Assembly (NCBI RefSeq): GCF_003034965.1
Contig: NZ_PZKE01000015.1
Coordinates: 1 to 64,000 of the forward strand
Source of the DNA: Fuscovulum blasticum DSM 2131
Lineage (GTDB): Bacteria; Pseudomonadota; Alphaproteobacteria; Rhodobacterales; Rhodobacteraceae
Length of the DNA: 64,000 bases
Reading direction: 5' to 3'
Position 1 is the first letter of the stretch. The number at the start of each line of letters is the position of its first letter. Positions 6,416-64,000 of the stretch are shown in pieces. Below the pieces are notes generated by a model, which saw only the letters and a list, made by a program, of their open reading frames with translations, was not told where the DNA came from and did not search any database. Position numbers and translations under genes: made by a program.

Positions 6416-7054
6416 CTAGAAGGACCGGCCGTCGGGCGAAATCACATTTCCTTCTGCGGCGGTGGCATCTTCGGCATCATGGGTGACCAGAACCGCGGGC
6501 AGGCTGCGGGCGCGGATGGTCTGGAACACGAAACTGCGGATCTGCGCGCGGCGGTCTGCGTCAAGACGGGAAAAGGGTTCGTCCAGCAGGATGGCCTTTG
6601 GTTCGGCCAGCAGCGTTCTCAGCAGGGCGACGCGGGCGCGTTCGCCGCCCGACAGGGTCTCCGGGTCGCGGCGTCCGAATCCGGCCAGCCCGGCCTCTGC
6701 CAGCGCGGCCTCGATCCGGGCGGCCCGGCCCGGCAGGCCACGGGGCAGGGCGAAGGCCAGATTGCCCGCCACCGACAGATGCGGAAACAGCAGAGTGTCC
6801 TGAAACAGGATGCCGATGCGCCGGTCCCGGGTGGGCAGGGCGGTGACATCGCGACCGTCCAGCAGGATGCGGCCCCGCAGGGTGAAGGCCGGATCAAGCG
6901 TGCCGATCAGCGCCGCCAGCAGGGTGGATTTGCCCGAGCCGGACGGCCCCATGATGGTCAGCACCTCGCCCGGTGCGACATGGGTGTCGATCCGCACCAG
7001 CGGCGTGCCCGCGCGGTCGATCTGCACCCCTTGCAGGGAAAGGCCCGGTGTCAT
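6416..7054 (-). CDS. ynjD: ABC transporter ATP-binding protein, YnjD-like
   Basis: The 212-residue ATPase has Walker A GPSGSGKST near residue 38, a Q-loop in GILFQDTLLFPHLS, signature LSGGERARVALLRTLL and Walker B KAILLDEPFSRLD. The H-loop is VLVTHD. Its ATG overlaps the permease stop (ATGA). Together with the next two genes it has the E. coli ynjBCD layout, whose substrate is not established. The small single-domain ATPase also resembles ThiQ. The symbol rests on gene order and a ynjF-like neighbour. Confidence 0.8.
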   Translation of the reverse strand: MTPGLSLQGVQIDRAGTPLVRIDTHVAPGEVLTIMGPSGSGKSTLLAALIGTLDPAFTLRGRILLDGRDVTALPTRDRRIGILFQDTLLFPHLSVAGNLAFALPRGLPGRAARIEAALAEAGLAGFGRRDPETLSGGERARVALLRTLLAEPKAILLDEPFSRLDADRRAQIRSFVFQTIRARSLPAVLVTHDAEDATAAEGNVISPDGRSF

Positions 7055-17619: not shown

Positions 17620-17635
17620 TTTACCGTTTGATAAA
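17620..17635 (+). promoter_or_regulatory. degenerate RutR-like dyad upstream of preT
   Basis: TTTACCGTTTGATAAA is an imperfect dyad in an AT-rich patch 56 bases before preT. By eye it agrees with about 10 of 14 positions of the E. coli RutR consensus TTGACCA-NN-TGGTCAA. It probably overlaps the preT promoter. The resemblance is weak alone and gains weight only from the pathway context. Confidence 0.3.
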
Positions 17636-17690
17636 ATAAAAATCTGTGAGACGCTTCCTCCAAGCCATAAGCCAGGGAGGCAAGACCCCG

Positions 17691-19010
17691 ATGCCGAACA
17701 GCCAGCTCACGCCCGGAATCGTTCCGGGACGTCTGCCCGCAACTGCCTATGACAGGAACTTTGACGATCATCTGCCCGCGCTGGATGCGCATGAGGCGCG
17801 GGTGGCGGCGGATCGCTGCTACTTCTGCCATGATGCGCCCTGCGTGACGGCCTGTCCCACCGACATCGACATCCCGCTGTTCATCCGCCAGATCGCCACC
17901 GGCACGCCCGAAGCGGCCGCCCGCACGATCTGGACGCAGAACATCCTGGGCGGCATGTGCGCCCGCGTCTGTCCGACCGAAACCCTGTGCGAAGAGGCCT
18001 GCGTACGCCAGACCGCCGAAGGCAAGCCGGTCGAGATCGGACTGCTGCAACGCCACGCCACCGATGTGGCGATGGCCAGCAACCGCCATCCGTTTTCCCG
18101 CGGCCCCGCGACCGGCAAGTCGGTTGCGGTGGTGGGGGCGGGGCCGGCGGGTCTGGCCTGCGCGCATCGTCTGGCCATGAAGGGCCATGAGGTGACGGTG
18201 TTCGAGCGGCGGCCCAAGCCGGGTGGGCTGAACGAATATGGCATCGCCAGCTACAAGGCCGCCGGCGGCTTTGCCGCGCGCGAGGTGGACTGGCTGCTGC
18301 AGATCGGCGGCATCACGGTGAAATGCGGCGTCGAACTGGGGCGCGACCTGACGCTGGCCGACCTGCAGCGCGATTTTGACGCGGTGTTCCTTGGCATCGG
18401 CCTGCAAGGCGTGAACGCACTGCGCGCCGAGGGCGAGGATCTGCCCGGCGTGGCCAATGCGGTGGATTTCATCGCCGACCTGCGCCAGTCGTCTGACCTG
18501 TCGAAACTGCCGGTGGGCCGCGATGTCGTGGTGATCGGCGGCGGCATGACTGCGGTGGATGCGGCGGTGCAGTCCAAACTGCTGGGCGCCGAGACTGTGA
18601 CCATCGTCTATCGCCGTGGCCCCGAAAAGATGGCGGCCTCGGGCTATGAGCAGGACCATGCGCTGCAGGCGGGCGTGCGGATCATCCACAACGCGGCCCC
18701 TTTCCGCGTCACCGGAAACGGCCGGGTCGAGGCGGTGGATTTCGCCTATACCGAAGACGGGCCGGACGGGCTGAAGCTCCTGGACGAAGGCTTTACCCTG
18801 AAGGCCGATCAGGTGTTCAAGGCCATCGGCCAGACGCTGACCGGCGTGCCCGAAGGGGTGATGGTCGCAGGCGGCAAGATCGCGGCAACGCCGGCAAGGG
18901 TCTGGGCGGGCGGCGATTGTGCGGCGGGCGGCGAAGACCTGACAGTGACCGCCGTGGCCGAAGGCCGCGATGCCGCCGAGGCGATCCACGCCTTTCTGAC
19001 AGGCGCGTGA
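17691..19010 (+). CDS. preT: NAD-dependent dihydropyrimidine dehydrogenase subunit PreT
   Basis: The 439-residue FAD/iron-sulfur subunit passes electrons between NADH and PreA for uracil/thymine reduction. The N-terminal [4Fe-4S] domain has CYFCHDAPCVTACPTDIDIP and CARVCPTETLCEEAC. The FAD-binding GAGPAGLACAHRLAMKGHEV follows near residue 145, and a second nucleotide motif VVIGGGMTAVDAAVQ near 280. ATG 17691 with GGGAGG nine bases upstream is preferred to the ATG at 17646. It is co-oriented with dedA and preA. The GltD-like fold alone would be ambiguous; preA and hydA nearby fix the pathway. Confidence 0.93.
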   Translation: MPNSQLTPGIVPGRLPATAYDRNFDDHLPALDAHEARVAADRCYFCHDAPCVTACPTDIDIPLFIRQIATGTPEAAARTIWTQNILGGMCARVCPTETLCEEACVRQTAEGKPVEIGLLQRHATDVAMASNRHPFSRGPATGKSVAVVGAGPAGLACAHRLAMKGHEVTVFERRPKPGGLNEYGIASYKAAGGFAAREVDWLLQIGGITVKCGVELGRDLTLADLQRDFDAVFLGIGLQGVNALRAEGEDLPGVANAVDFIADLRQSSDLSKLPVGRDVVVIGGGMTAVDAAVQSKLLGAETVTIVYRRGPEKMAASGYEQDHALQAGVRIIHNAAPFRVTGNGRVEAVDFAYTEDGPDGLKLLDEGFTLKADQVFKAIGQTLTGVPEGVMVAGGKIAATPARVWAGGDCAAGGEDLTVTAVAEGRDAAEAIHAFLTGA

Positions 19011-19076: not shown

Positions 19077-19610
19077 ATGCAGGGCTGGATCGACACCGTC
19101 ATCGCGTTCATCGAACGCCATCACGCCTGGGCGCCCTGGATCATGGTGATCTTTGCCGCGGCCGAGACGACGGCCTTTCTGTCGATCCTGATTCCCTCGA
19201 CGGCGGTTCTGGTTGCCATGGGCGCGCTGGCCGCCACCGGGGCCATCGACTTTCTGTCGCTCTGGCTGGGCGCCAGCATCGGCGCGCTGATCGGATCGAC
19301 CTTCTCGTTCTGGCTGGGCCTGCGCTACGGCAGCACGGTGCTGACGATGCGGCCGCTGTCGCAACATCCCGAAATGGTCGCGAAAGCCCGCACCGCCTTT
19401 ACCCGCTATGGGCCGGTCACGGTGTTCGTGGGCCATTTCGTGACCGTGTTTCGCCCTGTCGTCTTTCTGATGGCCGGGATGAGCGGCATGACCCTGACCC
19501 GCTTTGCCTTCTGGAACACGCTGGGCGCCGTGGCCTGGGCGTTCCTGATTCCCAAGATGGGCGAATTCGGCGGCGACATCCTGGGCTGGCTCTGGTCCTA
19601 TCTGGGCTGA
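19077..19610 (+). CDS. DedA family membrane protein
   Basis: The 177-residue SNARE-associated/DedA-family protein has about four to five membrane segments. Visible blocks are FLSILIPSTAVLVAMGALAATG, LGASIGALIGSTFSFWLG, the conserved arginine motif GHFVTVFRPVVFLMAGM and a C-terminal WAFLIPKMGEFGG. DedA proteins are linked to lipid-carrier flipping and membrane homeostasis. Its place between preT and preA is unusual, and a direct role in pyrimidine breakdown is not implied by the family. An A/G-rich ribosome-binding sequence (GGCAGGAGCGGAC) precedes the ATG. Confidence 0.9.
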   Translation: MQGWIDTVIAFIERHHAWAPWIMVIFAAAETTAFLSILIPSTAVLVAMGALAATGAIDFLSLWLGASIGALIGSTFSFWLGLRYGSTVLTMRPLSQHPEMVAKARTAFTRYGPVTVFVGHFVTVFRPVVFLMAGMSGMTLTRFAFWNTLGAVAWAFLIPKMGEFGGDILGWLWSYLG

Positions 19611-19670: not shown

Positions 19671-20975
19671 ATGGCTGACCTGACGTCCAGTTTCATCGGC
19701 ATCAAGTCCCCCAATCCGTTCTGGCTGGCCTCGGCGCCGCCGACGGACAAGGAATACAACGTCGTCCGCGCCTTTCAGGCCGGCTGGGGCGGCGTGGTGT
19801 GGAAGACCCTCGGGTCAGAGGGGCCGCCGGTCGTCAACGTCTCCGGTCCGCGCTATGGTGCGGTCTGGGGGGCGGACCGCCGCCTTCTGGGGCTGAACAA
19901 CATCGAACTGATCACCGACCGCCCGCTTGAGGTGAACCTGCAAGAGATCAAGTCGGTCAAACGCGCCTGGAAGGACCGGGCGCTGGTGATCAGCCTGATG
20001 GTGCCCTGCGATGAAGACTCGTGGAAGGACATCCTCAAGCGCATCGAGGATACCGAGGCCGATGGCGTGGAGCTGAACTTCGGCTGCCCGCATGGCATGG
20101 CCGAACGCGGCATGGGGTCTGCCGTGGGGCAGGTGCCCGAATACATCGAGATGGTGACACGCTGGGTCAAGAAGCACAGCCGGATGCCCTGCATCGTCAA
20201 GCTGACGCCGAACATCAGCGACATCCGCCGCCCGGCCGAGGCCGCCAAACGCGGCGGGGCGGATGCGGTGTCGCTGATCAACACGATCAACTCGATCACC
20301 AGCGTCAATCTGGATGATTTCAGCCCCGAGCCGATGATCGACGGCAAGGGCACCCATGGCGGCTATTGCGGCCCGGCGGTGAAGCCGATCGCGCTGAACA
20401 TGGTGGCCGAGATTGCCCGCAACGCCGAAACCCATGGCCTGCCGATTTCGGGCATCGGCGGGGTCACCACCTGGCGCGATGCGGCGGAATTCATGGCGCT
20501 GGGGGCGGGCAACGTGCAGGTCTGCACGGCGGCGATGACCTATGGCTTCAAGATCGTGCAGGAAATGATCTCGGGCCTGTCGGACTATATGGATCGCAAG
20601 GGCTTCACCTCGACCGCAGATCTGGTGGGCCGTGCGGTGCCGAACGTGACCGACTGGCAGTATCTGAACCTGAACTATGTCACCAAGGCGCAGATCAGCC
20701 AGGCCGACTGCATCCAGTGCGGGCGCTGCTATGCCGCCTGCGAAGACACCAGCCACCAAGCCATTGCCATGTCGCCCGACCGTGTGTTCACGGTGAAGGA
20801 CGAGGAATGTGTCGCCTGCAACCTGTGCGTCAACGTCTGCCCGGTCGAGAACTGCATCACCATGGTGCCCATGCAGAAGGGCGTCGTCGATCCGCGGACG
20901 GGGCGCAAGGTTGGCGATTATGCAAACTGGACGACACACCCCAACAACCCGATGTCGGTGAAGGCCGCCGAATAG
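19671..20975 (+). CDS. preA: NAD-dependent dihydropyrimidine dehydrogenase subunit PreA
   Basis: The 434-residue subunit reduces uracil/thymine. The FMN-binding dihydroorotate dehydrogenase-like barrel starts with SFIGIKSPNPFWLASAPPTD. The active-site segment is ELNFGCPHGMAERGMG and the phosphate-binding region is GIGGVTTWRDAAEF. Two C-terminal ferredoxin-type clusters follow: CIQCGRCYAACED and CVACNLCVNVCPVENC. CAAGGAGG precedes the ATG. It acts with PreT in the first step of the reductive pathway; HydA and the amidase encoded downstream on the same strand do steps two and three. Confidence 0.95.
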   Translation: MADLTSSFIGIKSPNPFWLASAPPTDKEYNVVRAFQAGWGGVVWKTLGSEGPPVVNVSGPRYGAVWGADRRLLGLNNIELITDRPLEVNLQEIKSVKRAWKDRALVISLMVPCDEDSWKDILKRIEDTEADGVELNFGCPHGMAERGMGSAVGQVPEYIEMVTRWVKKHSRMPCIVKLTPNISDIRRPAEAAKRGGADAVSLINTINSITSVNLDDFSPEPMIDGKGTHGGYCGPAVKPIALNMVAEIARNAETHGLPISGIGGVTTWRDAAEFMALGAGNVQVCTAAMTYGFKIVQEMISGLSDYMDRKGFTSTADLVGRAVPNVTDWQYLNLNYVTKAQISQADCIQCGRCYAACEDTSHQAIAMSPDRVFTVKDEECVACNLCVNVCPVENCITMVPMQKGVVDPRTGRKVGDYANWTTHPNNPMSVKAAE

Positions 20976-21452: not shown

Positions 21453-22061
21453 TCAACCGGGGCTCAGCATCCGGCGGAACAGCGTGTCCAGAAAGGGGCC
21501 GGCTTCGGCAAAGGGATCATGGCCAGGCCCCAGAACGGCGCGGACCTGAAAGTCGAAGTCGGCATAATGCTGGGTCAGCGCCCAGACCGAAAAGATCAGA
21601 TGCACCGGATCGACACGCGCCAGGCGGCCCTGATCCATCCAGCCTGCCAGAACGGCGGCCTTTTCATCGACCAGCGCCTTCAGATCACCCTCAAGGGCCT
21701 CGCGGATGCGGGGGCCGCCCTGAAGGATTTCATTGGCGAAAAGCCGGCTTTCGCGGGGAAAGTCGCGGGACAGGTCCAGCTTGCGCCGCACATAGGCCAG
21801 AACCTCGGTGACCGGCTCGCCCTCCGGGTTCAGCGCGCGCAGCGGATCAAGCCAGGTGTCCAGCAGGCCGGTCAGAAGGGTGCGGTGCACCTCTTCCTTC
21901 GAGGCGAAGTAGTACAGCAGGTTCGGCTTGGACAGGCCGGCGACCTCGGCGATCTGGTCCACCGTTGCGCCACGGAAGCCTTGCGCCGAAAACACGTCAA
22001 GCGCGGCTTCCAGGATGGCTTCTCGGTTCTTGCGCTGAATGCGGCTGCGCTGCACGGTCAT
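21453..22061 (-). CDS. TetR family transcriptional regulator, RutR-like
   Basis: The 202-residue repressor has an N-terminal HTH (REAILEAALDVFSAQGFRGATVDQIAEVAGLSKPNLLYYFASKEEV; read as a TetR DNA-binding domain). Its C-terminal part (LFANEILQGGPRIREALEGDLKALVDEK, VDPVHLIFSVWALTQHYADF) resembles the RutR ligand domain. GGAAAGGA places the start at 22061 rather than at 22085 or 22130. It is one of two RutR-like paralogues in the pyrimidine island. Pyrimidine sensing is inferred from RutR and from location. It is co-oriented with the UPF0303 gene and the other regulator. Confidence 0.85.
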   Translation of the reverse strand: MTVQRSRIQRKNREAILEAALDVFSAQGFRGATVDQIAEVAGLSKPNLLYYFASKEEVHRTLLTGLLDTWLDPLRALNPEGEPVTEVLAYVRRKLDLSRDFPRESRLFANEILQGGPRIREALEGDLKALVDEKAAVLAGWMDQGRLARVDPVHLIFSVWALTQHYADFDFQVRAVLGPGHDPFAEAGPFLDTLFRRMLSPG

Positions 22062-22126: not shown

Positions 22127-22582
22127 TCACAGGGACGCCAGCGCATCCTCAAGGGCCGCAACGGCCAGACGATGATCCTCCACCTGCGGCAGGCCCGAGA
22201 CGGTAAGGCAGGCCACCACGCCGGTGCCCGCCACCCGGATCGGCACCGCACCGCCATGGTCGGCATAGTCGGCCATGTCCAGCCCGTGCTTGGCCAGCGT
22301 TTCGTTCTTGGCGCGGTTGCGCAGGCCGACCAGCAGCGAGGGCACCTGGAACAGCAGCGCCGTGGCCGACTTGCGCGCGACCCACAGGTCGTTCAGCGGC
22401 GCCGCGCCGGGCAGGGCGGCGTGGAACAGCACCCGGTCGGCGGTGCGGATGTCGATGACAATGGGCAGCGCCCCGGCCAGCCCGCGCCGGACCAGATCCT
22501 GCCCCAGCGCCAGCGCGACCGTTTCGTCGAAACGGGGGAAGATCAGGCGATCATAATCGGCTTCGATGGTTTCGGGCTGCAT
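22127..22582 (-). CDS. heme-degrading/UPF0303 (GlcG/HbpS-like) family protein
   Basis: The 151-residue protein matches UPF0303: an N-terminal FDETVALALGQDLVRRG, VIDIRTADRVLFHAALPGAAPLNDLWVARKSATAL, a middle AKHGLDMADYADHGGAVPIRV and GTGVVACLTVSGLPQVEDHRLAVAAL. Members share the HbpS/GlcG fold; some bind heme, but activity is generally unproven. It lies 65 bases upstream of the TetR gene on the same strand. A link to pyrimidine use is only positional. Confidence 0.82.
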   Translation of the reverse strand: MQPETIEADYDRLIFPRFDETVALALGQDLVRRGLAGALPIVIDIRTADRVLFHAALPGAAPLNDLWVARKSATALLFQVPSLLVGLRNRAKNETLAKHGLDMADYADHGGAVPIRVAGTGVVACLTVSGLPQVEDHRLAVAALEDALASL

Positions 22583-22601: not shown

Positions 22602-23174
22602 TTATTTCAGCGTGACCGGCTGGGTGAAGCTGGCACGCTGGTCACTGTGCCGGTCGCGGAAGGTGAATTCCAGTTGATAGTCGCCCGCCGGGGCGTCGGT
22701 CAGGTTCACCACCAGCGTTGCGCCGAATTCGCGCGCCTTGCCGCGCGCCTGATGGGTCAGCGCCATGAAATCCGGCGCCTCGACCAGAACGCCGCCCGCC
22801 GTGTCAAGGATGCGCAGGTCAACGGCAAAACCGATCTCGAACCGGCCGTCGCCAAGGTCGCCATACCCGTAGCCTTGCGGTTCGGCATAAAGGAAGATGT
22901 CCTCGCCGCGCGCATAGACGGTATCGGGGCGGGGATCATAGACGCCGAACCCGCCCGAAGCCGCGGCGGTGGGCAGCGCCTGCCGGAAATGCAGCGGCTG
23001 CGCGGCCCAGGCGGCCTCTTGCAACTGGTCCTGCGCGGCGGTCAGGGCCGCCGCATCGCCCCCCGCGGCCGCAGCCTCCAGCGCAGCGGCGGCATCGGCC
23101 ACCGGGCCGGCCTGGGCGGGCAGGGCAAGGGCAAGCGAAAGGGCGGCAAGGCTGGCAAGAGCGGGAAAACGCAT
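22602..23174 (-). CDS. exported hypothetical protein
   Basis: The 190-residue protein has a clear Sec signal peptide (MRFPALASLAALSLALALPAQAG) and an Ala-rich helical stretch. A beta-rich C-terminal part follows (FGVYDPRPDTVYARGEDIFLYAEP, FEIGFAVDLRILD, GDYQLEFTFRDRHSDQRASF), suggesting an immunoglobulin-like or similar sandwich. No enzyme motif is visible. Homologues are seen in Rhodobacterales as uncharacterised periplasmic proteins, as far as I recall. It sits between the UPF0303 gene and the second TetR gene. Function unknown. Confidence 0.75.
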   Translation of the reverse strand: MRFPALASLAALSLALALPAQAGPVADAAAALEAAAAGGDAAALTAAQDQLQEAAWAAQPLHFRQALPTAAASGGFGVYDPRPDTVYARGEDIFLYAEPQGYGYGDLGDGRFEIGFAVDLRILDTAGGVLVEAPDFMALTHQARGKAREFGATLVVNLTDAPAGDYQLEFTFRDRHSDQRASFTQPVTLK

Positions 23175-23274: not shown

Positions 23275-23928
23275 TCAGGCGCCGCTCAACCCGATGCCGC
23301 GCAGGATGATGGCCTTCACGCTGTCGGTCGCGGCCTGCCATTGCCGGTCATTCAGCGGCTTGCCGCCGTTCAGCGTTTCGATCTGGTGGCCGAAATCGGC
23401 ATAGTGCTGGGTGGTGGCCCAGATCATGTACAGCAGGTGGCGCGGGTCGATGGGGGCCATCTGGCCCTGGTCGATCCAGCGGCGGATGGCGGTGATGCGG
23501 CCCTCGGTCCAGTCGCGCAGCGTGGTTTCCAGATAGTCCTGGATCACCGGCGCGCCGTGCATCACCTCGCTGGCCCAGACCTTGGACCCGAAGGGATGTT
23601 CGCGCGAGATGCGCATCTTCGCCTCGATATAGGCGCCAATGCCGCTGGCCGGGTCGGGGGCATTGTCGAAACTGTCGGCGGCACGCAGCCAGATCTGGAA
23701 GATGTCCTCGACCACACGGCGGTAAAGCTCCTCCTTGGTGGCGAAATAGTAATGCAGGTTGGCCTTGGGCAGGCCCGCCATATCGGCGATCAACTGCATG
23801 GTGGCCCCGCCGAACCCGGCCTCGGCAAACACCTTTTCCGCGGCGCGCAGGATCAACTGCTCGTTCTCGCGCCTTATATCGGTGCGACGGCTGCCCCTTG
23901 TGCGTGTTTTCTGTGCAGAGTCATCCAT
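23275..23928 (-). CDS. rutR: RutR-family TetR regulator of pyrimidine catabolism
   Basis: The 217-residue protein has a TetR HTH (LILRAAEKVFAEAGFGGATMQLIADMAGLPKANLHYYF). Its ligand domain is RutR-like: RISREHPFGSKVWASEVMHGAPVI, DWTEGRITAIRRWIDQGQMAPIDPRHLLYMIWATTQHYADF. It diverges from the amidase-hydA-transporter operon across a 136-base gap that contains two near-consensus RutR operators. It is therefore the best candidate for the local repressor or regulator responding to uracil/thymine. A weak ribosome-binding sequence leaves the exact start less certain. Confidence 0.87.
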   Translation of the reverse strand: MDDSAQKTRTRGSRRTDIRRENEQLILRAAEKVFAEAGFGGATMQLIADMAGLPKANLHYYFATKEELYRRVVEDIFQIWLRAADSFDNAPDPASGIGAYIEAKMRISREHPFGSKVWASEVMHGAPVIQDYLETTLRDWTEGRITAIRRWIDQGQMAPIDPRHLLYMIWATTQHYADFGHQIETLNGGKPLNDRQWQAATDSVKAIILRGIGLSGA

Positions 23929-23948: not shown

Positions 23949-23998
23949 TTGACCGGCTGGTCAGGTTGTGGTGCGCTTCGCCTTGACCATACGGTCAG
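23949..23998. promoter_or_regulatory. two RutR-type operators
   Basis: TTGACCGGCTGGTCAG (23949-23964) and TTGACCATACGGTCAG (23983-23998) both have the form TTGACC-N4-GGTCAG, centres 34 bases apart. The published E. coli RutR consensus TTGACCA-NN-TGGTCAA differs from each at two or three positions. They lie between the divergent rutR-like gene and the pyrimidine operon, close enough to control both. Confidence 0.75.
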
Positions 23999-24064: not shown

Positions 24065-25315
24065 ATGGCCGCACCAGGTGAGAACCTGAAGATCAATTCC
24101 GCACGGCTGTGGGACAGCCTCATGGAAATGGCCCTGATCGGCCCCGGCATCGCGGGGGGATGCAACCGCCAGACCCTGACCGATGCCGACAGCGAGGGCC
24201 GCCACCTGTTCCAGCGCTGGTGTCAGGCGGCGGGCATGACCATGGGCGTGGACAGCATGGGCAACATGTTCGCCACCCGTCCCGGCACCGACCCCGACGC
24301 CCTGCCGGTCTATATGGGCAGCCATCTGGACACCCAGCCCACGGGCGGGAAATACGATGGCGTTCTGGGTGTTCTGGGCGCGCTTGAGGCGGTGCGGACG
24401 ATGAACGATCTGGGCATCCGCACCCGGCATCCGGTTGCCATCGTGAACTGGACGAACGAGGAAGGCGCCCGCTTCGCGCCCGCCATGCTGGCCAGCGGCG
24501 TTTTCGCCGGCATCCATACCGAAGACTATGCCAAGGCCCGCCGCGATCTGGACGGCAAGGTCTTTGGCGAGGAACTGGCCCGCATCGGCTGGGTGGGCGA
24601 GGAAAAGGTCGGCGCGCGCAAGATGCACGCCTATTTCGAGCTGCACATCGAACAGGGCCCGATCCTTGAGGCCGAAGGCAAGGACATCGGCGTCGTCACC
24701 CATTGCCAGGGGCTGTGGTGGCTGGAATTCACCCTCACCGGCCGCGAGGCGCATACCGGCAGCACGCCGATGAACCTGCGGGTGAACGCCGGCCTTGCCA
24801 TGGCGCGCATCTTCGAAATGGTGCAGGCCGTGGCGATGGAGAACCAGCCCAATGCCGTGGGCGGGGTGGGGCAGGTGACCTTTGCCCCGAACAGCCGCAA
24901 CGTGCTGCCGGGCAAGGTGGTGTTCACCGTGGACATCCGCACCGTCGATCAGGCCAAGCTGGATCGGATGCGCGCGAAGATCGAGGCCGAGGCGGCGGCG
25001 ATCTGCGAGGCGTTGGGTGTAGGCTGCGCGGTCGAGGCGGTGGGCCATTTCGACCCCGTGACCTTTACCCCCGATCTGGTGACGAAGGTCCGGTCTGCGG
25101 CGGAAAAGCTGGGCTACAGCCACATGGACATCGTATCTGGCGCGGGGCATGACGCCTGCTGGACGGCCCGCGTCGCCCCAACCACCATGATCATGTGCCC
25201 CTGCGTGGGCGGCCTCAGCCATAACGAGGCCGAGACCATCTTCCCGGAATGGGCCGCCGCTGGGGCGGACGTGCTGCTTCATGCGGTGCTGGACACGGCA
25301 GAGGTGATTGCGTGA
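24065..25315 (+). CDS. M20-type amidase, probable N-carbamoyl-beta-alanine amidohydrolase
   Basis: The 416-residue zinc-dependent hydrolase belongs to the hydantoinase/carbamoylase branch of peptidase M20. Metal and catalytic motifs are MGSHLDTQPTGGKYDG, NWTNEEGARFAPAM and AYFELHIEQGPILE; a dimerisation domain is followed by SGAGHDACW and CPCVGGLSHNE. Family members hydrolyse N-carbamoyl amino acids or allantoate. Position directly before dihydropyrimidinase and behind RutR operators indicates beta-ureidopropionase activity, the third step of reductive pyrimidine degradation. CAGGGAGACGCCAG precedes the ATG. Confidence 0.88.
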   Translation: MAAPGENLKINSARLWDSLMEMALIGPGIAGGCNRQTLTDADSEGRHLFQRWCQAAGMTMGVDSMGNMFATRPGTDPDALPVYMGSHLDTQPTGGKYDGVLGVLGALEAVRTMNDLGIRTRHPVAIVNWTNEEGARFAPAMLASGVFAGIHTEDYAKARRDLDGKVFGEELARIGWVGEEKVGARKMHAYFELHIEQGPILEAEGKDIGVVTHCQGLWWLEFTLTGREAHTGSTPMNLRVNAGLAMARIFEMVQAVAMENQPNAVGGVGQVTFAPNSRNVLPGKVVFTVDIRTVDQAKLDRMRAKIEAEAAAICEALGVGCAVEAVGHFDPVTFTPDLVTKVRSAAEKLGYSHMDIVSGAGHDACWTARVAPTTMIMCPCVGGLSHNEAETIFPEWAAAGADVLLHAVLDTAEVIA

Positions 25316-25402: not shown

Positions 25403-26854
25403 ATGAGCACTGTCATCAAGAACGGCACCATCGTCACCGCCGATCTGACCTACAAATCCGATGTGCTGGTCGAGGATGGCCAGATCATCGCCATCGGCCA
25501 CGGGCTGAAGGGCGATACGGTGCTGGATGCGACGGGCTGCTATGTCATGCCGGGCGGGATCGACCCGCATACGCATCTGGAAATGCCCTTCATGGGCACC
25601 TATTCGGCCGATGATTTCGACAGCGGCACCCGCGCGGCGCTGGCGGGGGGCACCACGATGGTGGTGGATTTCGCGCTGCCGTCGCCGGGGCAAGGGCTGC
25701 TGGACGCGCTGAAGATCTGGGACAACAAGACCGCCCGGGCGCATTGCGACTACAGCTTCCACATGGCGGTGACATGGTGGGGCGAGCAGGTCTTTGACGA
25801 GATGAAGGCCGTGACCGAGCGCGGAATCAACACCTTCAAGCACTTCATGGCCTACAAGGGGGCCCTGATGGTGAACGATGACGAGATGTTCGCCAGCTTC
25901 CGCCGCTGTGCCGAACTTGGGGCGATTCCGTTGGTCCATGCCGAGAACGGCGATCTGGTGGCGGAAATGTCGGCCAAGCTGCTGGCCGAGGGCAATACCG
26001 GCCCCGAGGCCCATGCCTACAGCCGCCCCAGCCAGGTGGAAGGCGAGGCGACCAACCGCGCGATCATGATCGCGGATATGGCGGGCGTACCGCTGTACGT
26101 CGTGCATACGTCGTGCGAAGAGGCACACGAGGCGATCCGCCGGGCAAAGATGAACGGCAAGCGGGTCTGGGGCGAGCCGCTGATCCAGCACCTGACGCTG
26201 GACGAGAGCGAATACTTCAACCCCGACTGGGACCATGCCGCGCGGCGGGTGATGAGCCCGCCTTTCCGCGACAAGCGCCATCAGGACAGCCTTTGGGCGG
26301 GGCTTGCCAGCGGCACGCTGTCCTGCGTCGCCACCGACCATTGCGCCTTTACCACCGAACAGAAGCGGTTCGGCGTCGGCAACTTCACCAAGATCCCGAA
26401 CGGCACCGGCGGGCTTGAGGACCGGATGCCGATGCTGTGGACCTATGGCGTGAACACCGGGCGGATCACGATGAACGAATTCGTCGCCGTCACCTCGACC
26501 AATATCGCCAAGATCATGAACTGCTACCCGAAGAAGGGCGCGGTTCTGGTGGGGGCGGACGCCGATCTGGTGGTCTGGGACCCCGAGAAGGAAAAGACCA
26601 TCAGCGCCAAAGCCCAGCAATCGGCCATCGACTACAATGTGTTCGAGGGCAAGACGGTCAAGGGCCTGCCGCGCTATGTGATGAGCCGGGGCCATGTGGC
26701 GGTGACGGACGGCGCGCTGACCAGTGTCGAGGGGCATGGCAAGTTCGTCGCCCGCGCGCCGGGCACCCCGGTCGGCAAGGCGCTGTCCACCTGGAAGGCG
26801 CTGACCAACCCGCGGCCGGTGGCGCGCGCGGGTATTCCGGCAAGCGGGGTATGA
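25403..26854 (+). CDS. hydA: dihydropyrimidinase
   Basis: The 483-residue cyclic amidohydrolase opens dihydrouracil/dihydrothymine. The metal-binding motif is GGIDPHTHLEMPFMG. The carboxylated Lys lies in NTFKHFMAYKGALM, metal-binding His residues in VHAENGD and VVHTSCEEAHEAI, and the metal Asp in CVATDHCAF. The length is standard for D-hydantoinase/dihydropyrimidinase. GGGGAGCGGGAA precedes the ATG. Its stop overlaps the start of a 36-residue ORF as TGATG, and the pyrimidine transporter genes follow. Confidence 0.96.
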   Translation: MSTVIKNGTIVTADLTYKSDVLVEDGQIIAIGHGLKGDTVLDATGCYVMPGGIDPHTHLEMPFMGTYSADDFDSGTRAALAGGTTMVVDFALPSPGQGLLDALKIWDNKTARAHCDYSFHMAVTWWGEQVFDEMKAVTERGINTFKHFMAYKGALMVNDDEMFASFRRCAELGAIPLVHAENGDLVAEMSAKLLAEGNTGPEAHAYSRPSQVEGEATNRAIMIADMAGVPLYVVHTSCEEAHEAIRRAKMNGKRVWGEPLIQHLTLDESEYFNPDWDHAARRVMSPPFRDKRHQDSLWAGLASGTLSCVATDHCAFTTEQKRFGVGNFTKIPNGTGGLEDRMPMLWTYGVNTGRITMNEFVAVTSTNIAKIMNCYPKKGAVLVGADADLVVWDPEKEKTISAKAQQSAIDYNVFEGKTVKGLPRYVMSRGHVAVTDGALTSVEGHGKFVARAPGTPVGKALSTWKALTNPRPVARAGIPASGV

Positions 26855-26964
26855 TGGCGACGCTGGCCGAACAGGCCGGGATCGACGGGCGGCTGACGGC
26901 GGCGGTCGCGGCGTGGGTCATGTATCGGGACAGGGCGGCCGGGGCCGTTGGGGGACAGGAATGA
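26854..26964 (+). CDS. small coupled ORF (36 aa) between hydA and the transporter
   Basis: The ATG overlaps the hydA stop as TGATG, and the TGA stop overlaps the next ATG as ATGA, so the ORF fits exactly into the operon. The product starts MATLAEQAGIDGRLTAAVAA and contains WVMYRDRAAG; an amphipathic helix is likely. I recognise no family. It may be a real small protein or a device that carries ribosomes from hydA to the ATPase gene. The double coupling is the main evidence. Confidence 0.5.
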   Translation: MATLAEQAGIDGRLTAAVAAWVMYRDRAAGAVGGQE

Positions 26965-27758
26965 AGGATACCATCAACCTCGGCCAGCCGGTGATTGCGG
27001 CGCAGGGGCTGAATCTGGTCTTCCAGACCAATGACGGGCCGGTTCACGCGTTGAAGGACGTGGACCTGACCATCGGCAAGGGCGAATTCGTCAGCTTCAT
27101 CGGCCCCTCGGGCTGTGGCAAGACCACCTTCCTGCGCTGCATCGCGGCGCTGGAACATCCGACCGGCGGCAGCCTGACCGTGAATGGCATGACCCCCGAC
27201 GAGGCGCGGCGCAAGCGGGCCTATGGCTATGTGTTCCAGGCGGCGGGGCTGTATCCGTGGCGCACCATCGCCGGCAATATCAAGCTGCCGCTGGAGATCA
27301 TGGGCTTCCCCCGGGCCGAACAGGAAGCCCGGGTCGAACGGGTGCTGGATCTGGTCGACCTGAAGGGTTTTGGCAAGAAATTCCCCTGGCAATTGTCGGG
27401 CGGGATGCAGCAACGCGCCAGCATCGCCCGCGCGCTGGCCTTTGATGCCGACATCCTGCTGATGGACGAACCCTTCGGCGCGCTGGACGAGATCGTCCGC
27501 GACCGGCTGAACGAAGAGCTGCTCAAGCTCTGGGCGCGGACCGGCAAGACCATCGGCTTCGTCACCCATTCCATTCCCGAGGCGGTCTATCTGTCCACCA
27601 AGATCGTGGTCATGTCGCCGCGTCCGGGCCGCATCACCGATGTGATCGACAGCCCCTTGCCAAGGGAGCGGCCGCTGGACATCCGCGATACGCCCGAATT
27701 CATTGCCATCGCGCATCGGGTGCGCGAAGGGCTGCGCGCGGGCCATTCCTATGACTGA
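26961..27758 (+). CDS. ABC transporter ATP-binding protein (pyrimidine-type)
   Basis: The 265-residue nitrate/sulfonate/thiamine-precursor-type ATPase has Walker A GPSGCGKTT near residue 50. The Q-loop is YVFQAAGLYPWRT, the signature LSGGMQQRASIARAL, Walker B ILLMDEPFGALDE and the H-loop FVTHSIPEAV. The start at 26961 overlaps the small ORF stop, with GGGGGACAGGA upstream. It energises the two permeases that follow. Co-transcription with amidase and hydA suggests uptake of a pyrimidine or catabolic intermediate. Confidence 0.9.
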   Translation: MKDTINLGQPVIAAQGLNLVFQTNDGPVHALKDVDLTIGKGEFVSFIGPSGCGKTTFLRCIAALEHPTGGSLTVNGMTPDEARRKRAYGYVFQAAGLYPWRTIAGNIKLPLEIMGFPRAEQEARVERVLDLVDLKGFGKKFPWQLSGGMQQRASIARALAFDADILLMDEPFGALDEIVRDRLNEELLKLWARTGKTIGFVTHSIPEAVYLSTKIVVMSPRPGRITDVIDSPLPRERPLDIRDTPEFIAIAHRVREGLRAGHSYD

Positions 27759-27773
27759 CCGCGGGGGCCGGGC

Positions 27774-28640
27774 ATGAACCGCGTGTTGCCGATCCTGACG
27801 GTTGTCGCGGCCATCGTGGTGCTGTGGTATGGCGCGGCGGTGGCGATGAACCGGGCCTGGGTTCTGGATCAGGCCGCGCGGGCGGGGACCGAACCGCCCG
27901 CCTTCGGCCAGATGGTCGTCGCCACCATGACACAGGAACGCCCCGTGCTGCCCGCGCCGCATCAGGTGGTGGCCGAGCTGTGGAAGGGCGTCGCCGGGCA
28001 GGCGATCACCTCGAAGCGCAGTCTGGTCTATCACGGCTGGATCACCCTGTCGGCCACGCTTCTGGGCTTTGCCATCGGCACGGCGGCGGGCATCGCGCTG
28101 GCGGTGGGCATCGTCCATAACCGCGCCATGGACATGAGCGTGCTGCCCTGGGCGATTGCCAGCCAGACCATCCCGATCCTGGCCATCGCGCCGATGTTCA
28201 TCGTGGTGATGAACAGCATGGGGGTGCAGGGGCTGGTGCCCAAGGCCATCATCTCGGCCTATCTGTCGTTCTTCCCGGTGGTGGTGGGCATGGTCAAGGG
28301 GTTGCGCGCGCCCGATGCGATGCAGCTTGACCTGCTGCGCACCTATAACGCCGGGGGCGCGGCGGTGCTGGGCAAGCTGCGGCTGCCGGCCTCGATGCCC
28401 TATCTTTTCGCCTCGCTCAAGGTCGGGGCGGCGGCGGCCCTGGTGGGGGCCATCGTGGGCGAACTGCCGACCGGCGCCGTGGCGGGGCTTGGCGCGCGGC
28501 TTTTGTCGGGCAGCTATTATGGCCAGACCATCCAGATCTGGGCGGCGCTGTTCGCGGCGGCCATCGTGGCGGCCGGGCTGGTGGCGGTGATCGGGCTGGT
28601 CGAGCGGGTGACGCTGCGGCGGATGGGGATGGCACGATGA
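27774..28640 (+). CDS. ABC transporter permease 1 (pyrimidine-type)
   Basis: The 288-residue inner-membrane permease has an N-terminal helix, a periplasmic stretch (MNRAWVLDQAARAGTEPP) and about five further helices. The BPD-transp-1 EAA-like loop is GLRAPDAMQLDLLRTYNAGGAAVLGKLRLPASMPYLFASLKVG. It is followed by an ATGA overlap with a second, different permease, so the channel is a heterodimer. Membership of the SsuC/TauC/ThiX-type permeases agrees with the NMT1/THI5-like binding protein downstream. Confidence 0.9.
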   Translation: MNRVLPILTVVAAIVVLWYGAAVAMNRAWVLDQAARAGTEPPAFGQMVVATMTQERPVLPAPHQVVAELWKGVAGQAITSKRSLVYHGWITLSATLLGFAIGTAAGIALAVGIVHNRAMDMSVLPWAIASQTIPILAIAPMFIVVMNSMGVQGLVPKAIISAYLSFFPVVVGMVKGLRAPDAMQLDLLRTYNAGGAAVLGKLRLPASMPYLFASLKVGAAAALVGAIVGELPTGAVAGLGARLLSGSYYGQTIQIWAALFAAAIVAAGLVAVIGLVERVTLRRMGMAR

Positions 28641-29551
28641 AGAACGCTTCGGCCTTCGACTGGACCCTGACGGGGATCGTCATCGCCGCGCTTGTCGCGG
28701 GCTGGATTTATGATCCCCGGCTGGGCACGGTCCTGTCGATCTGGCTGGGCGCCTGGGCGGTCAACGCGATGATCGCGCGGGGCAGGGGCCCCTTGCCGCG
28801 CTGGCTGGTGCCGGCGCTGTTCGGGGTGACGCTGCTGGTGCTGTGGGAACTGGTGGTGCGGCTCTTCGCCGTGTCTCCGGTCATTCTGCCCGCGCCTTCG
28901 GCGATTGCCGCGCGGATTGCGGGCAGCGGCCCCACGCTCTGGGCCGATTTCGTGCAGACCGGCCTGAAAGGCGCGCTGACCGGCTGGCTGATCGGCTGCG
29001 CCGCCGCCGTGGCGGCAGCCATCGCGGTGGACCGCAGCCCCTTCCTGCAACGCGGCCTGCTGCCGGTGGGCAATTTCGTGGCCGCGCTGCCCATCGTGGG
29101 CATCGCGCCGATCATGGTGATGTGGTTCGGCTTCGACTGGCAGTCCAAGGCCGCCGTCGTGGTGGTCATGGTGTTCTTCCCGGTGCTGGTGAACATGGTT
29201 GCGGGCCTGAAGGCGACCGATGCCATGCAGCGCGACCAGATGGCCACCTGGCACGCCAGCTATTGGCAGACGCTGTGGAAACTGCGGTTCCCCGCGGCGC
29301 TGCCCTTCCTGTTCAACGGGCTGAAGATCGCCACCACGCTGGCGCTGATCGGCGCCATCGTTGCCGAGTTCTTCGGCAGCCCCATCGTTGGCATGGGGTT
29401 CCGCATCAACGCCTCGATCGGGCAGCTTGCGCTGGACATGATCTGGGCCGAGATTGCCGTTGCCGCGGTTGCCGGATCGGCCTTCTATGGGCTGGTCGCA
29501 CAGATCGAGAAGCGGGTGACCTTCTGGCACCCGTCACAGCGTCGTCAATGA
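28637..29551 (+). CDS. ABC transporter permease 2 (pyrimidine-type)
   Basis: The 304-residue permease starts MKNASAFDWTLTG and overlaps the previous stop (ATGA). About six to seven helices are visible. The EAA-type loop is GLKATDAMQRDQMATWHASYWQTLWKLRFPAALPFLFNGLKI, similar to but distinct from permease 1. It pairs with permease 1 and the ATPase. No substrate specificity can be read from the sequence; the operon context suggests pyrimidines or related nitrogen heterocycles. Confidence 0.9.
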   Translation: MKNASAFDWTLTGIVIAALVAGWIYDPRLGTVLSIWLGAWAVNAMIARGRGPLPRWLVPALFGVTLLVLWELVVRLFAVSPVILPAPSAIAARIAGSGPTLWADFVQTGLKGALTGWLIGCAAAVAAAIAVDRSPFLQRGLLPVGNFVAALPIVGIAPIMVMWFGFDWQSKAAVVVVMVFFPVLVNMVAGLKATDAMQRDQMATWHASYWQTLWKLRFPAALPFLFNGLKIATTLALIGAIVAEFFGSPIVGMGFRINASIGQLALDMIWAEIAVAAVAGSAFYGLVAQIEKRVTFWHPSQRRQ

Positions 29552-29591
29552 AAATGGGCCGCAAGACAGGCCTGCAACAGGAGAGGAAGCC

Positions 29592-30575
29592 ATGAAGAAA
29601 GTGATGACGGGGACGTTGCTTGCCGGGCTGCTGGCGGCGGGCGGGGCCTGGGCCGAGGATGTGACCCTGCAGTTGAAATGGGTCACGCAGGCCCAGTTCG
29701 CCGGCTATTATGTGGCCAAGGACAAGGGTTTTTATGAAGAAGAAGGCCTGAACGTCACCATCCTGCCGGGCGGCCCCGATGTGGCCCCGACCCAGGTGAT
29801 CGCCGGCGGCGGTGCCGATGTGGTGGTGGACTGGATGCCGTCCGCCCTGGCTGCCCGCGAAAAGGGGCTGGCGCTGGTGAACATCGCCCAGCCGTTCAAG
29901 TCGTCGGGGATGCAGCTTACCTGTCTCAAGGAATCGGGCGTGACGACGCCGGCCGATTTCAAGGGCAAGACGCTGGGCGTCTGGTTCGGCGGCAACGAAT
30001 ATCCGTTCCTGAACTGGATGGGCAAGCTCGGCCTGAAGACCGACGGTTCGCCCGATGGCGTGACGGTGCTGAAGCAGGGCTTCAACGTCGATCCGCTGCT
30101 GCAAAAGCAGGCCGCCTGCATCTCGACCATGACCTATAACGAATACTGGCAGGTCATCGACGCCGGCATCACGCCCGAGCAACTGGTGAACTTCAACTAC
30201 ACCACCGAAGGCGTGGCGACGCTGGAAGACGGGCTTTACGTCATGGAAGACAAGCTGTCGGATGCGGCCTTCCAGGACAAGATGGTCAAGTTCGTCCGCG
30301 CTTCGATGAAGGGCTGGAAATGGGCGGAAGAGAACCCCGACGAAGCCGCCATGATCGTGCTGGAAAATGACGAGACCGGCGCCCAGACCGAAGCGCATCA
30401 GAAGCGCATGATGGGCGAGGTGGCCAAGCTGACCGCCGGGTCGAACGGCGCGCTGGACGAGGCCGATTATCAGCGCACCGTCGATGCGCTGATGTCGGGC
30501 GGGTCGGATGCCGTCATCACCAAGGCGCCGGAAGGGGCCTGGACCCACGCGATCACCGACAAGGCGCTGCAATAA
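29592..30575 (+). CDS. NMT1/THI5-like ABC substrate-binding protein
   Basis: The 327-residue periplasmic protein has a signal peptide (MKKVMTGTLLAGLLAAGGAWA). The NMT1/THI5 domain opens LQLKWVTQAQFAGYYVAKDKGFYEEEGLNVTILPGG and contains ADVVVDWMPSALAAREKG and KGKTLGVWFGGNEYPFLNWM. The family binds pyrimidine moieties of thiamine biosynthesis and related compounds (ThiY, RibY). Here it closes an operon with amidase, hydA and permeases, so uracil/thymine or a dihydro-derivative is the likely ligand by inference. CAGGAGAGGAAGCC precedes the ATG. A strong terminator follows. Confidence 0.92.
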   Translation: MKKVMTGTLLAGLLAAGGAWAEDVTLQLKWVTQAQFAGYYVAKDKGFYEEEGLNVTILPGGPDVAPTQVIAGGGADVVVDWMPSALAAREKGLALVNIAQPFKSSGMQLTCLKESGVTTPADFKGKTLGVWFGGNEYPFLNWMGKLGLKTDGSPDGVTVLKQGFNVDPLLQKQAACISTMTYNEYWQVIDAGITPEQLVNFNYTTEGVATLEDGLYVMEDKLSDAAFQDKMVKFVRASMKGWKWAEENPDEAAMIVLENDETGAQTEAHQKRMMGEVAKLTAGSNGALDEADYQRTVDALMSGGSDAVITKAPEGAWTHAITDKALQ

Positions 30576-63122: not shown

Positions 63123-64000
63123 CCGACCTCTACCAGACCCAACGCGCCATGCGGAACATGCGCCGGGCTGCGATGCAGCGGGGCGTCATTGCCATTCTCG
63201 ACGTGGGCACCTCCAAGATTGCCTGCCTGATCCTTCGCTTCGACGGCGAGGCGCGGCTGCGCGAACAGGATGGCGTCGGCCCGATGGCCGGCCAAAGCCA
63301 GTTCCGCATCATCGGCGCCGCGACCACCCGGTCGCGCGGTGTCCGCTTCGGCGAAATCTCGGTGATGAACGAAACCGAAAGCGCGGTCCGCACGGCAGTT
63401 CAGGCGGCGCAGAAGATGGCCAATGTCCGCGTTGACCATGTGATCGCCTGCTTCTCGGGCGCCGAACCGCGCAGCTATGGTCTGGCCGGCGACACCGACC
63501 TCGCCGACAACGTGGTGACCGAACAGGACGTGGCCCGCGTGCTGGCCGCCTGCGACGTGCCCGATCTGGGGCATGGCCGCGAGGTGCTGCACGCCCAGCC
63601 GGTCAACTTCGCGCTGGACCACCGCACCGGCCTTGGCGATCCGCGCGGCCAGATCGGCAACCGTCTGGCCTGCGACATGCACCTTGTCTCGGTCGACGGA
63701 TCTGTGATCCAGAACCTGCTTTACGCCATCAAGCGCTGCGATCTGGAACTGGCCGGCATCGCCTCCTCGGCCTATGTCTCGGCCATTTCCTCGCTGGTCG
63801 AGGACGAACAGGAACTGGGCGCGGCCTGCATCGACATGGGTGGCGGCGCGACCGGCGTGTCGATCTTCATGAAGAAGCACATGATCTATACCGACAGCGT
63901 CCGCATGGGCGGTGATCATGTCACCTCGGATATTTCCAAGGGTCTGCAAATCCCGCTCAGCACGGCCGAGCGGATCAAGACCCGCCATGGCGGCCTGTTC
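63119..64000 (+). CDS. ftsA: cell division protein FtsA, 3'-truncated by window edge
   Basis: The GTG start overlaps the ftsQ stop (GTGA); the frame stays open for 294 codons to the last base. The actin-like fold has the phosphate-1 loop AILDVGTSKIACLI, the 1C domain with GAATTRSRGVRFGEI and RTAVQAAQKMANVRVDHVIACFSG. The second ATP motif is CIDMGGGATGVSIF, then GGDHVTSDISKGLQIPLSTAE. FtsA tethers FtsZ to the membrane. The C-terminal amphipathic helix and ftsZ would lie beyond the window. Confidence 0.96.
   Translation, partial: MTDLYQTQRAMRNMRRAAMQRGVIAILDVGTSKIACLILRFDGEARLREQDGVGPMAGQSQFRIIGAATTRSRGVRFGEISVMNETESAVRTAVQAAQKMANVRVDHVIACFSGAEPRSYGLAGDTDLADNVVTEQDVARVLAACDVPDLGHGREVLHAQPVNFALDHRTGLGDPRGQIGNRLACDMHLVSVDGSVIQNLLYAIKRCDLELAGIASSAYVSAISSLVEDEQELGAACIDMGGGATGVSIFMKKHMIYTDSVRMGGDHVTSDISKGLQIPLSTAERIKTRHGGLF

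Follow-up and report, generated by a model that had tools for sequence, protein, structure and literature searches.

Paired RutR-type dyads at the head of a reductive pyrimidine operon and a predicted pyrimidine and nucleoside regulon in Fuscovulum blasticum

In Fuscovulum blasticum DSM 2131, two neighbouring dyads most probably constitute a tandem operator for RutR-type TetR repressors. They are placed in the divergent region between a repressor gene and the operon for the reductive breakdown of pyrimidines; repression would be relieved by uracil, and the same type of control would extend to preT-preA and to nucleoside operons. This reading is built on comparative sequence analysis of the window (the whole stretch of DNA analysed, 64,000 nucleotides, positions 1 to 64,000 of contig NZ_PZKE01000015.1), of the remaining genome and of related loci.

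Results

The dyad pair and its setting

Dyad 1, proximal to tetR2 (23949-23964, TTGACCGGCTGGTCAG), begins 21 bp from the start of tetR2 (23928), on its upstream side, and dyad 2, proximal to the amidase gene (23983-23998, TTGACCATACGGTCAG), begins 82 bp ahead of the amidase start (24065), no strand being assigned to either. By direct reading of the sequence each dyad displayed two mismatches with respect to TTGACCANNTGGTCAA, the distance from start to start was 34 bp, and both fell inside the 136 bp that separate tetR2, on the minus strand, from the amidase gene, on the plus strand. With up to three mismatches allowed, seven dyad matches were obtained in the window vs. 0.84 expected, a number reached in 0/100 shuffles. 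The sequence TTGACCNNNNGGTCAG appeared exactly three times in the 3.59-Mb genome (69 contigs), corresponding to the two dyads of the window and to one copy upstream of deoC. A weak match at position 63432 of the window falls within an open reading frame, presumably ftsA.

The minus-strand run comprises tetR2, a small gene without profile match, an HbpS-like gene and tetR1, and the plus-strand run that starts from the dyads includes the amidase, dihydropyrimidinase and ABC transporter genes; preT, a DedA-like gene and preA are located upstream, also on the plus strand. Placed as it is in a region of divergent promoters, the pair may act on the regulator genes as well, and its reading as two copies for one operon was weighed against this location. 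No sigma-70-like promoter or terminator was found in a search between the tetR2 and amidase genes, so the geometry of repression is a guess.

Genes of the locus and their regulators

The set of genes for the reductive pathway is present together. The first step corresponds to a preT-like dihydropyrimidine dehydrogenase subunit (17646-19010, plus strand), named by context, with GltD-type matches under the cut-offs and an in-frame ATG at 17691, and to the preA subunit (19671-20975, plus strand; NF006183, 720 bits vs. a cut-off of 335). The second step corresponds to the dihydropyrimidinase hydA (25403-26854, plus strand; TIGR02033, 595 bits vs. a cut-off of 393) and the third to an M20 hydrolase of the N-carbamoyl-beta-alanine amidohydrolase type (24065-25315, plus strand), close to PDB 8c46 (E 1.4e-219). 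The ABC transporter, composed of an ATPase, two permeases and an NMT1/THI5-like binding protein, is encoded at 26955-30575 (plus strand). A DedA/VTT-domain membrane protein (19077-19610, plus strand), encoded between preT and preA, appeared in 4/80 loci of the best 80 of 587 amidase matches. Between the two tetR genes, a small protein is encoded at 22602-23174 (minus strand; without a match in Pfam or NCBIfam at E ≤ 0.001) and an HbpS-like protein at 22127-22582 (minus strand; PF03928), the gene of the latter being found in 3/80 of the same loci, plus genomes G007 and G033. A search of this genome with E. coli RutA, of the oxidative Rut pathway, detected no homologue at E ≤ 1e-40. The neighbours named in the first-pass annotation (two RutR-like TetR genes, dihydropyrimidinase, amidase and PreA) were all recovered, and the PreT-like protein was retained by context.

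TetR1 (21453-22061, minus strand) is a candidate RutR orthologue with 54% identity to E. coli RutR (95/177 aligned); its start was taken as ATG, an alternative GTG being possible at 22130. TetR2 (23275-23928, minus strand) is a RutR-like paralogue with 38% identity (79/209 aligned). Both proteins presented the Pfam domains TetR_N and TetR_C_3, and the two share 69 of 175 aligned residues and have similar recognition helices. The residues of RutR that contact uracil, given as W77, Y97, W167, Q171 and Q179 in the part of PMC10891134 that was available, were kept (5/5) in both TetR1 and TetR2. A 16-bp dyad near the regulator gene, a feature used here to judge RutR membership, was likewise present. 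The NCBIfam RutR cut-offs (368 for TIGR03613 and 230 for NF011584) were not reached by TetR1 (229.8 and 215.7, respectively) nor by TetR2 (202.2 and 169.7, respectively), and both proteins are therefore called RutR-like instead of RutR. In a midpoint-rooted tree of 126 sequences, the 25 labelled TetR2, by best match, formed one clade (support 1.0), and E. coli RutR grouped with the 100 labelled TetR1 (support 0.74).

Conservation of the dyads

Loci for comparison were the best 80 of 587 matches from an amidase scan of species genomes, mostly from Rhodobacterales and Rhizobiales. Among these best 80 of 587, a RutR-like gene and a dihydropyrimidinase gene were each present in 79/80, the ABC ATPase in 75/80, the binding protein in 70/80, preA in 60/80 and preT in 54/80, several loci stopping at a contig end. 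In the 13 loci with TetR2 beside the amidase (the window and 12 others), 22 of 32 columns were invariant in the dyads vs. 5 of 131 outside them, and the central ATAC of dyad 2 was found in 10 of the 13 aligned loci. The pattern YT[GT]ACCN4GGT[AC]AR gave 86 matches in the 1,473,635 bp of the best 80 of 587 loci, and all of them (86/86) were located upstream of the amidase and/or a rutR-like gene, at a distance of no more than 500 bp. Conservation in the same place was observed in Rhodobacterales and also in Rhizobiaceae, where the dyad takes the variant form TTTACCN4GGTCAA; the genome sets overlap (G010/L009, G005/L083 and G004/L046) and related strains do not count as independent. A chance origin of the dyads was rejected on this conservation footprint. 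The two near-consensus dyads that the first-pass annotation had proposed at 23949-23998 are thus borne out by the two mismatches of each copy, by the excess of matches in the window and by the concentration of invariant columns within them.

The pair goes with TetR2

When the best 80 of 587 loci were sorted by the RutR-like gene nearest to the amidase, 15 were of TetR2 type, 64 of TetR1 type and one was without such a gene. With up to three mismatches allowed, two dyads were present in all TetR2-type loci (15/15), at a spacing of 33 bp in eight and 34 bp in seven. For the TetR1-type loci, the 500 bp beside the TetR gene nearest to the amidase contained a pair in 0/64, one strict site in 54/64 and none in 10/64. 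A search over whole loci yielded 17 pairs, which comprised the 15 of TetR2 type, a pair in L087 that was not close to any query gene, and a pair in L088. The last, a TetR1-type locus, displayed at 6456-6504 a pair 33 bp apart before the amidase, with the distal copy worn to three mismatches; this worn pair without an adjoining TetR2, as in G007, may reflect a loss of TetR2. Family genomes carrying both TetR2 and the pair were G000, G002, G010, G011, G022 and G033, the second copy of G022 being at three mismatches. Besides L088, two exceptions were found: G020 has a TetR2-like gene, 65% identical, and one dyad, and G007 has no TetR2, one good dyad and one worn. At the level of sequence, the pair is associated with TetR2.

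Three of the TetR2-type loci (L018, L019 and L024) have the pair upstream of TetR2, with the amidase at a distance of 2-4 kb. The next gene on the plus strand in L018 and L019 encodes an omega-aminotransferase (AptA equivalog, above cut-off), and in L018 it is followed by a methylmalonate-semialdehyde dehydrogenase gene. Both enzymes are expected to act on beta-alanine or 3-aminoisobutyrate. An AptA gene between operator and amidase, which takes the operon beyond beta-alanine, was noted in L018, L019 and L034.

The position of each dyad beside a different gene start, 21 bp from that of tetR2 and 82 bp from that of the amidase, also fits two separate operators, dyad 1 being autoregulatory for tetR2 and dyad 2 serving the catabolic genes, possibly mainly under TetR1. 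The amidase-proximal dyad is the intact one in G007, which lacks TetR2, and again the better one in L088, and TetR1-type loci mostly get by on one dyad (54/64). However, a spacing of 33 or 34 bp in 15/15 TetR2-type loci, those with the aminotransferase gene first included, is more constant than independent operators need, and the losses seen are two only; we hold such a division of labour to be conceivable, although somewhat doubtful.

A variant dyad before preT

A variant dyad is located upstream of preT (17620-17635, no strand assigned, TTTACCGTTTGATAAA). It differs from TTGACCN4GGTCAA at 3 of 12 positions and is the single match of TTTAYCN4GRTAAA in this genome. A strict scan gave no site before preT and a relaxed scan gave 3/44. 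With A/T-rich half-sites allowed, as in Rhizobiaceae, the preT dyad appeared at one mismatch in 44/44 loci whose upstream sequence was long enough; the four patterns that make up this family had been picked after the copy of the window was seen. The controls for this dyad gave 2/880 in shuffles, which keep base composition only, and 0/279 in upstream windows of preA, hydA, the ABC ATPase and the binding protein. The very sequence TTTACCGTTTGATAAA stands before preT here and in 33 loci of the best 80 of 587. In 18/30 of the family genomes with preA, the contig of preA carried the strict variant pattern 1.4-2.1 kb upstream of the gene, and in 12/30 the pattern was missing there. An initial picture of preT-preA without a dyad was dropped after the wider search found the variant.

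Afifella (L085) carries TTGACCAATTGGTCGA before preT and two Pleomorphomonas loci carry an intermediate form, which suggests that all these copies belong to one site family. We infer that TetR1 reads the preT dyad, which could instead belong to another regulator.

Single sites before nucleoside operons

The first-pass annotation had suggested a genome-wide site search. For the core TGACCNNNNGGTCA it returned 22 places in the whole genome vs. three for the reversed control pattern; 17 of the 22 were inside open reading frames and five were intergenic, as delimited by our own codon-position G+C filter and not by annotation. All five intergenic copies precede operons for pyrimidine or nucleoside catabolism. 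They are the two dyads of the window and three single copies, located before deoC and an aldehyde dehydrogenase gene (L089, contig C9), before cdd-deoA-deoB (L090, contig C14) and before a BMP-type (PF02608) ABC transporter (L091, contig C3). The least clear core site (L259) was checked and lies inside an aminotransferase gene. Another core dyad (L258, C10:112517), probably due to chance, is within a gene whose product joins a polysaccharide-deacetylase domain to an OHCU-decarboxylase domain, as found in ureide breakdown.

Isolated matches can arise as noise, given 22 copies of the core across the genome with 17 located within genes, and on this ground the dyads of the window might be regarded as chance palindromes or as sites of an unrelated regulator. 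Their deep conservation, their fixed spacing and the absence of such sites elsewhere in related loci argue against this explanation and make it highly improbable.

A strict site was present in 33/120 upstream regions (amidase, deoC, cdd and bmp; the 30 best genomes for each, own genome included), vs. 0/120 coding windows; 200 rounds of shuffling produced no such case. By gene, within the same 30 best genomes each, it was found for the amidase in 16/30, deoC in 8/30, cdd in 4/30 and bmp in 5/30; the sites of the nucleoside operons were patchy across these genomes, and one deoC site (G018) sits 10 bp inside the extrapolated start. The strict dyad was absent from the 300 bp upstream of the amidase in 14/30 genomes. 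The set of 120 regions consists of the 30 best loci per search, and the amidases of G012 and G033, outside it, were examined apart.

Sites before nucleoside operons were also found in seven family genomes with a TetR1-type match alone (G003, G007, G018, G025, G028, G030 and G034), indicating that TetR2 is not needed for these sites. In G003 all three nucleoside sites were present and no amidase was detected at E ≤ 1e-60, in an assembly of about 390 contigs. Two family genomes (G023 and G026) had neither a RutR-like match nor a site; this support is drawn from the family level, G036, G039 and G050 being class-level genomes left outside it, of which G036 and G050 carry RutR-like genes.

The occurrence of nucleoside sites in these seven genomes, the link of the pair to TetR2, the variant preT dyad in Rhizobiaceae loci showing TetR1 only and the limited likeness of the two proteins (69/175 aligned residues) would also suit two insulated repressors. 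TetR2 alone would then use the pair, and TetR1 would serve preT and the nucleoside operons, each responding to a different ligand, e.g., uracil vs. thymine or a dihydropyrimidine. Nevertheless, the common core of both dyad types together with the similar recognition helices makes cross-binding likely, and the five pocket residues are identical in TetR1 and TetR2; we consider this insulation unlikely.

Discussion

The tandem operator that we favour for RutR-type repressors can be put as a scheme. Without uracil, the two 16-bp dyads, at a spacing of 34 bp or roughly 3.2 helical turns, would be occupied by repressor dimers, which would keep both promoters shut. Uracil, or thymine, would enter the conserved pocket and the repressor would leave, allowing production of the enzymes of the last two steps of the reductive pathway and of the transporter. 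The variant dyad would provide a like control of preT-preA, and hence of the first step, and the single copies before deoC, cdd-deoA-deoB and the BMP-type ABC transporter would widen the set, which would then span from nucleoside uptake to beta-alanine. The sites with their positions and conservation, the link of the pair to TetR2 and the kept pocket are seen in the sequence itself. Binding, repression, the role of uracil as inducer, cooperation between the dyads and a shared use of them by TetR1 and TetR2 are the parts of this scheme that we infer.

More tentatively, some alphaproteobacteria might possess a widespread TetR1 acting through single dyads, at the pyd operon, at preT and at some nucleoside operons, to which an added TetR2 would have brought the paired dyad that stands in front of the pyd operon. 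The common pocket and core could then grade the response from nucleosides to beta-alanine, and the pair could act as a sharper or differently tuned switch. We offer this picture as a possibility that we would not yet back.

The first-pass annotation had described two RutR operators controlling one reductive operon. It had overlooked the variant dyad at 17620-17635 and the location of the pair in a divergent promoter region, and its picture was incomplete with respect to the roles suggested here for the two RutR-like paralogues, the link of the pair with TetR2 and the sites for nucleoside catabolism. A pair of palindromes is in this way turned into a small regulon that can be tested. It brings together dyads of three related classes (paired, single and A/T-rich variant) and two candidate sensors that are paralogues, and takes in five operons predicted in a single genome. 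These operons span nucleoside uptake, deamination, phosphorolysis, sugar breakdown and the reductive uracil pathway. In addition, the locus exemplifies, in Rhodobacterales and Rhizobiales, a repressor paralogue accompanied by an operator arrangement of its own.

Neither RutR nor its dyad is new, and RutR-like control of the reductive pathway is already known from PydR, the repressor of this pathway in Pseudomonas putida (Hidese et al. 2012, J Biochem 152:341, as cited in PMC7332683). The contrast of a conserved regulator and site with a different regulated pathway, which the first-pass annotation had put forward, is therefore not new in itself. The RutR-type site before the reductive operon stands, given its conservation in the same place, the five uracil contacts and the lack of a RutA homologue at E ≤ 1e-40. 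A word resembling PydR in a Roseobacter paper (PMC11481893) proved to be the name of a plasmid. The open-access literature searched yielded no RutR regulon with a dihydropyrimidinase, and RutR did not appear in nucleoside papers among the matches listed. Papers naming both RutR and deoC concerned, by their titles, E. coli regulation or riboswitches. Among the matches listed, neither the association of the pair with a RutR paralogue nor the preT dyad was found described, the queries not having been aimed at either as such.

A study of Proteobacteria from 2016 described, in the portion of PMC5343134 available, RutR regulons under the label of pyrimidine catabolism; they covered 68 genomes from 13 taxonomic groups, and the RutR motif showed substitutions particular to individual taxa. 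The assignment of RutR to pyrimidine catabolism in the available text is shared with the regulon proposed here, and those regulons may already include predictions of the nucleoside targets and of the preT dyad.

The system of F. blasticum resembles that of E. coli RutR in the TetR_N and TetR_C_3 domains of TetR1 and TetR2, in the five uracil contacts kept and in the presence of a dyad in a divergent region between regulator and catabolic genes. The rutA-rutR region of E. coli holds TGGACTAAACGGTCAA, as read by eye, although the strict core pattern has no match there. RutR of E. coli controls the oxidative Rut operon and a single dyad was seen, whereas F. blasticum, in which no RutA was found at E ≤ 1e-40, presents the reductive pathway, two RutR-like paralogues and a pair of dyads.
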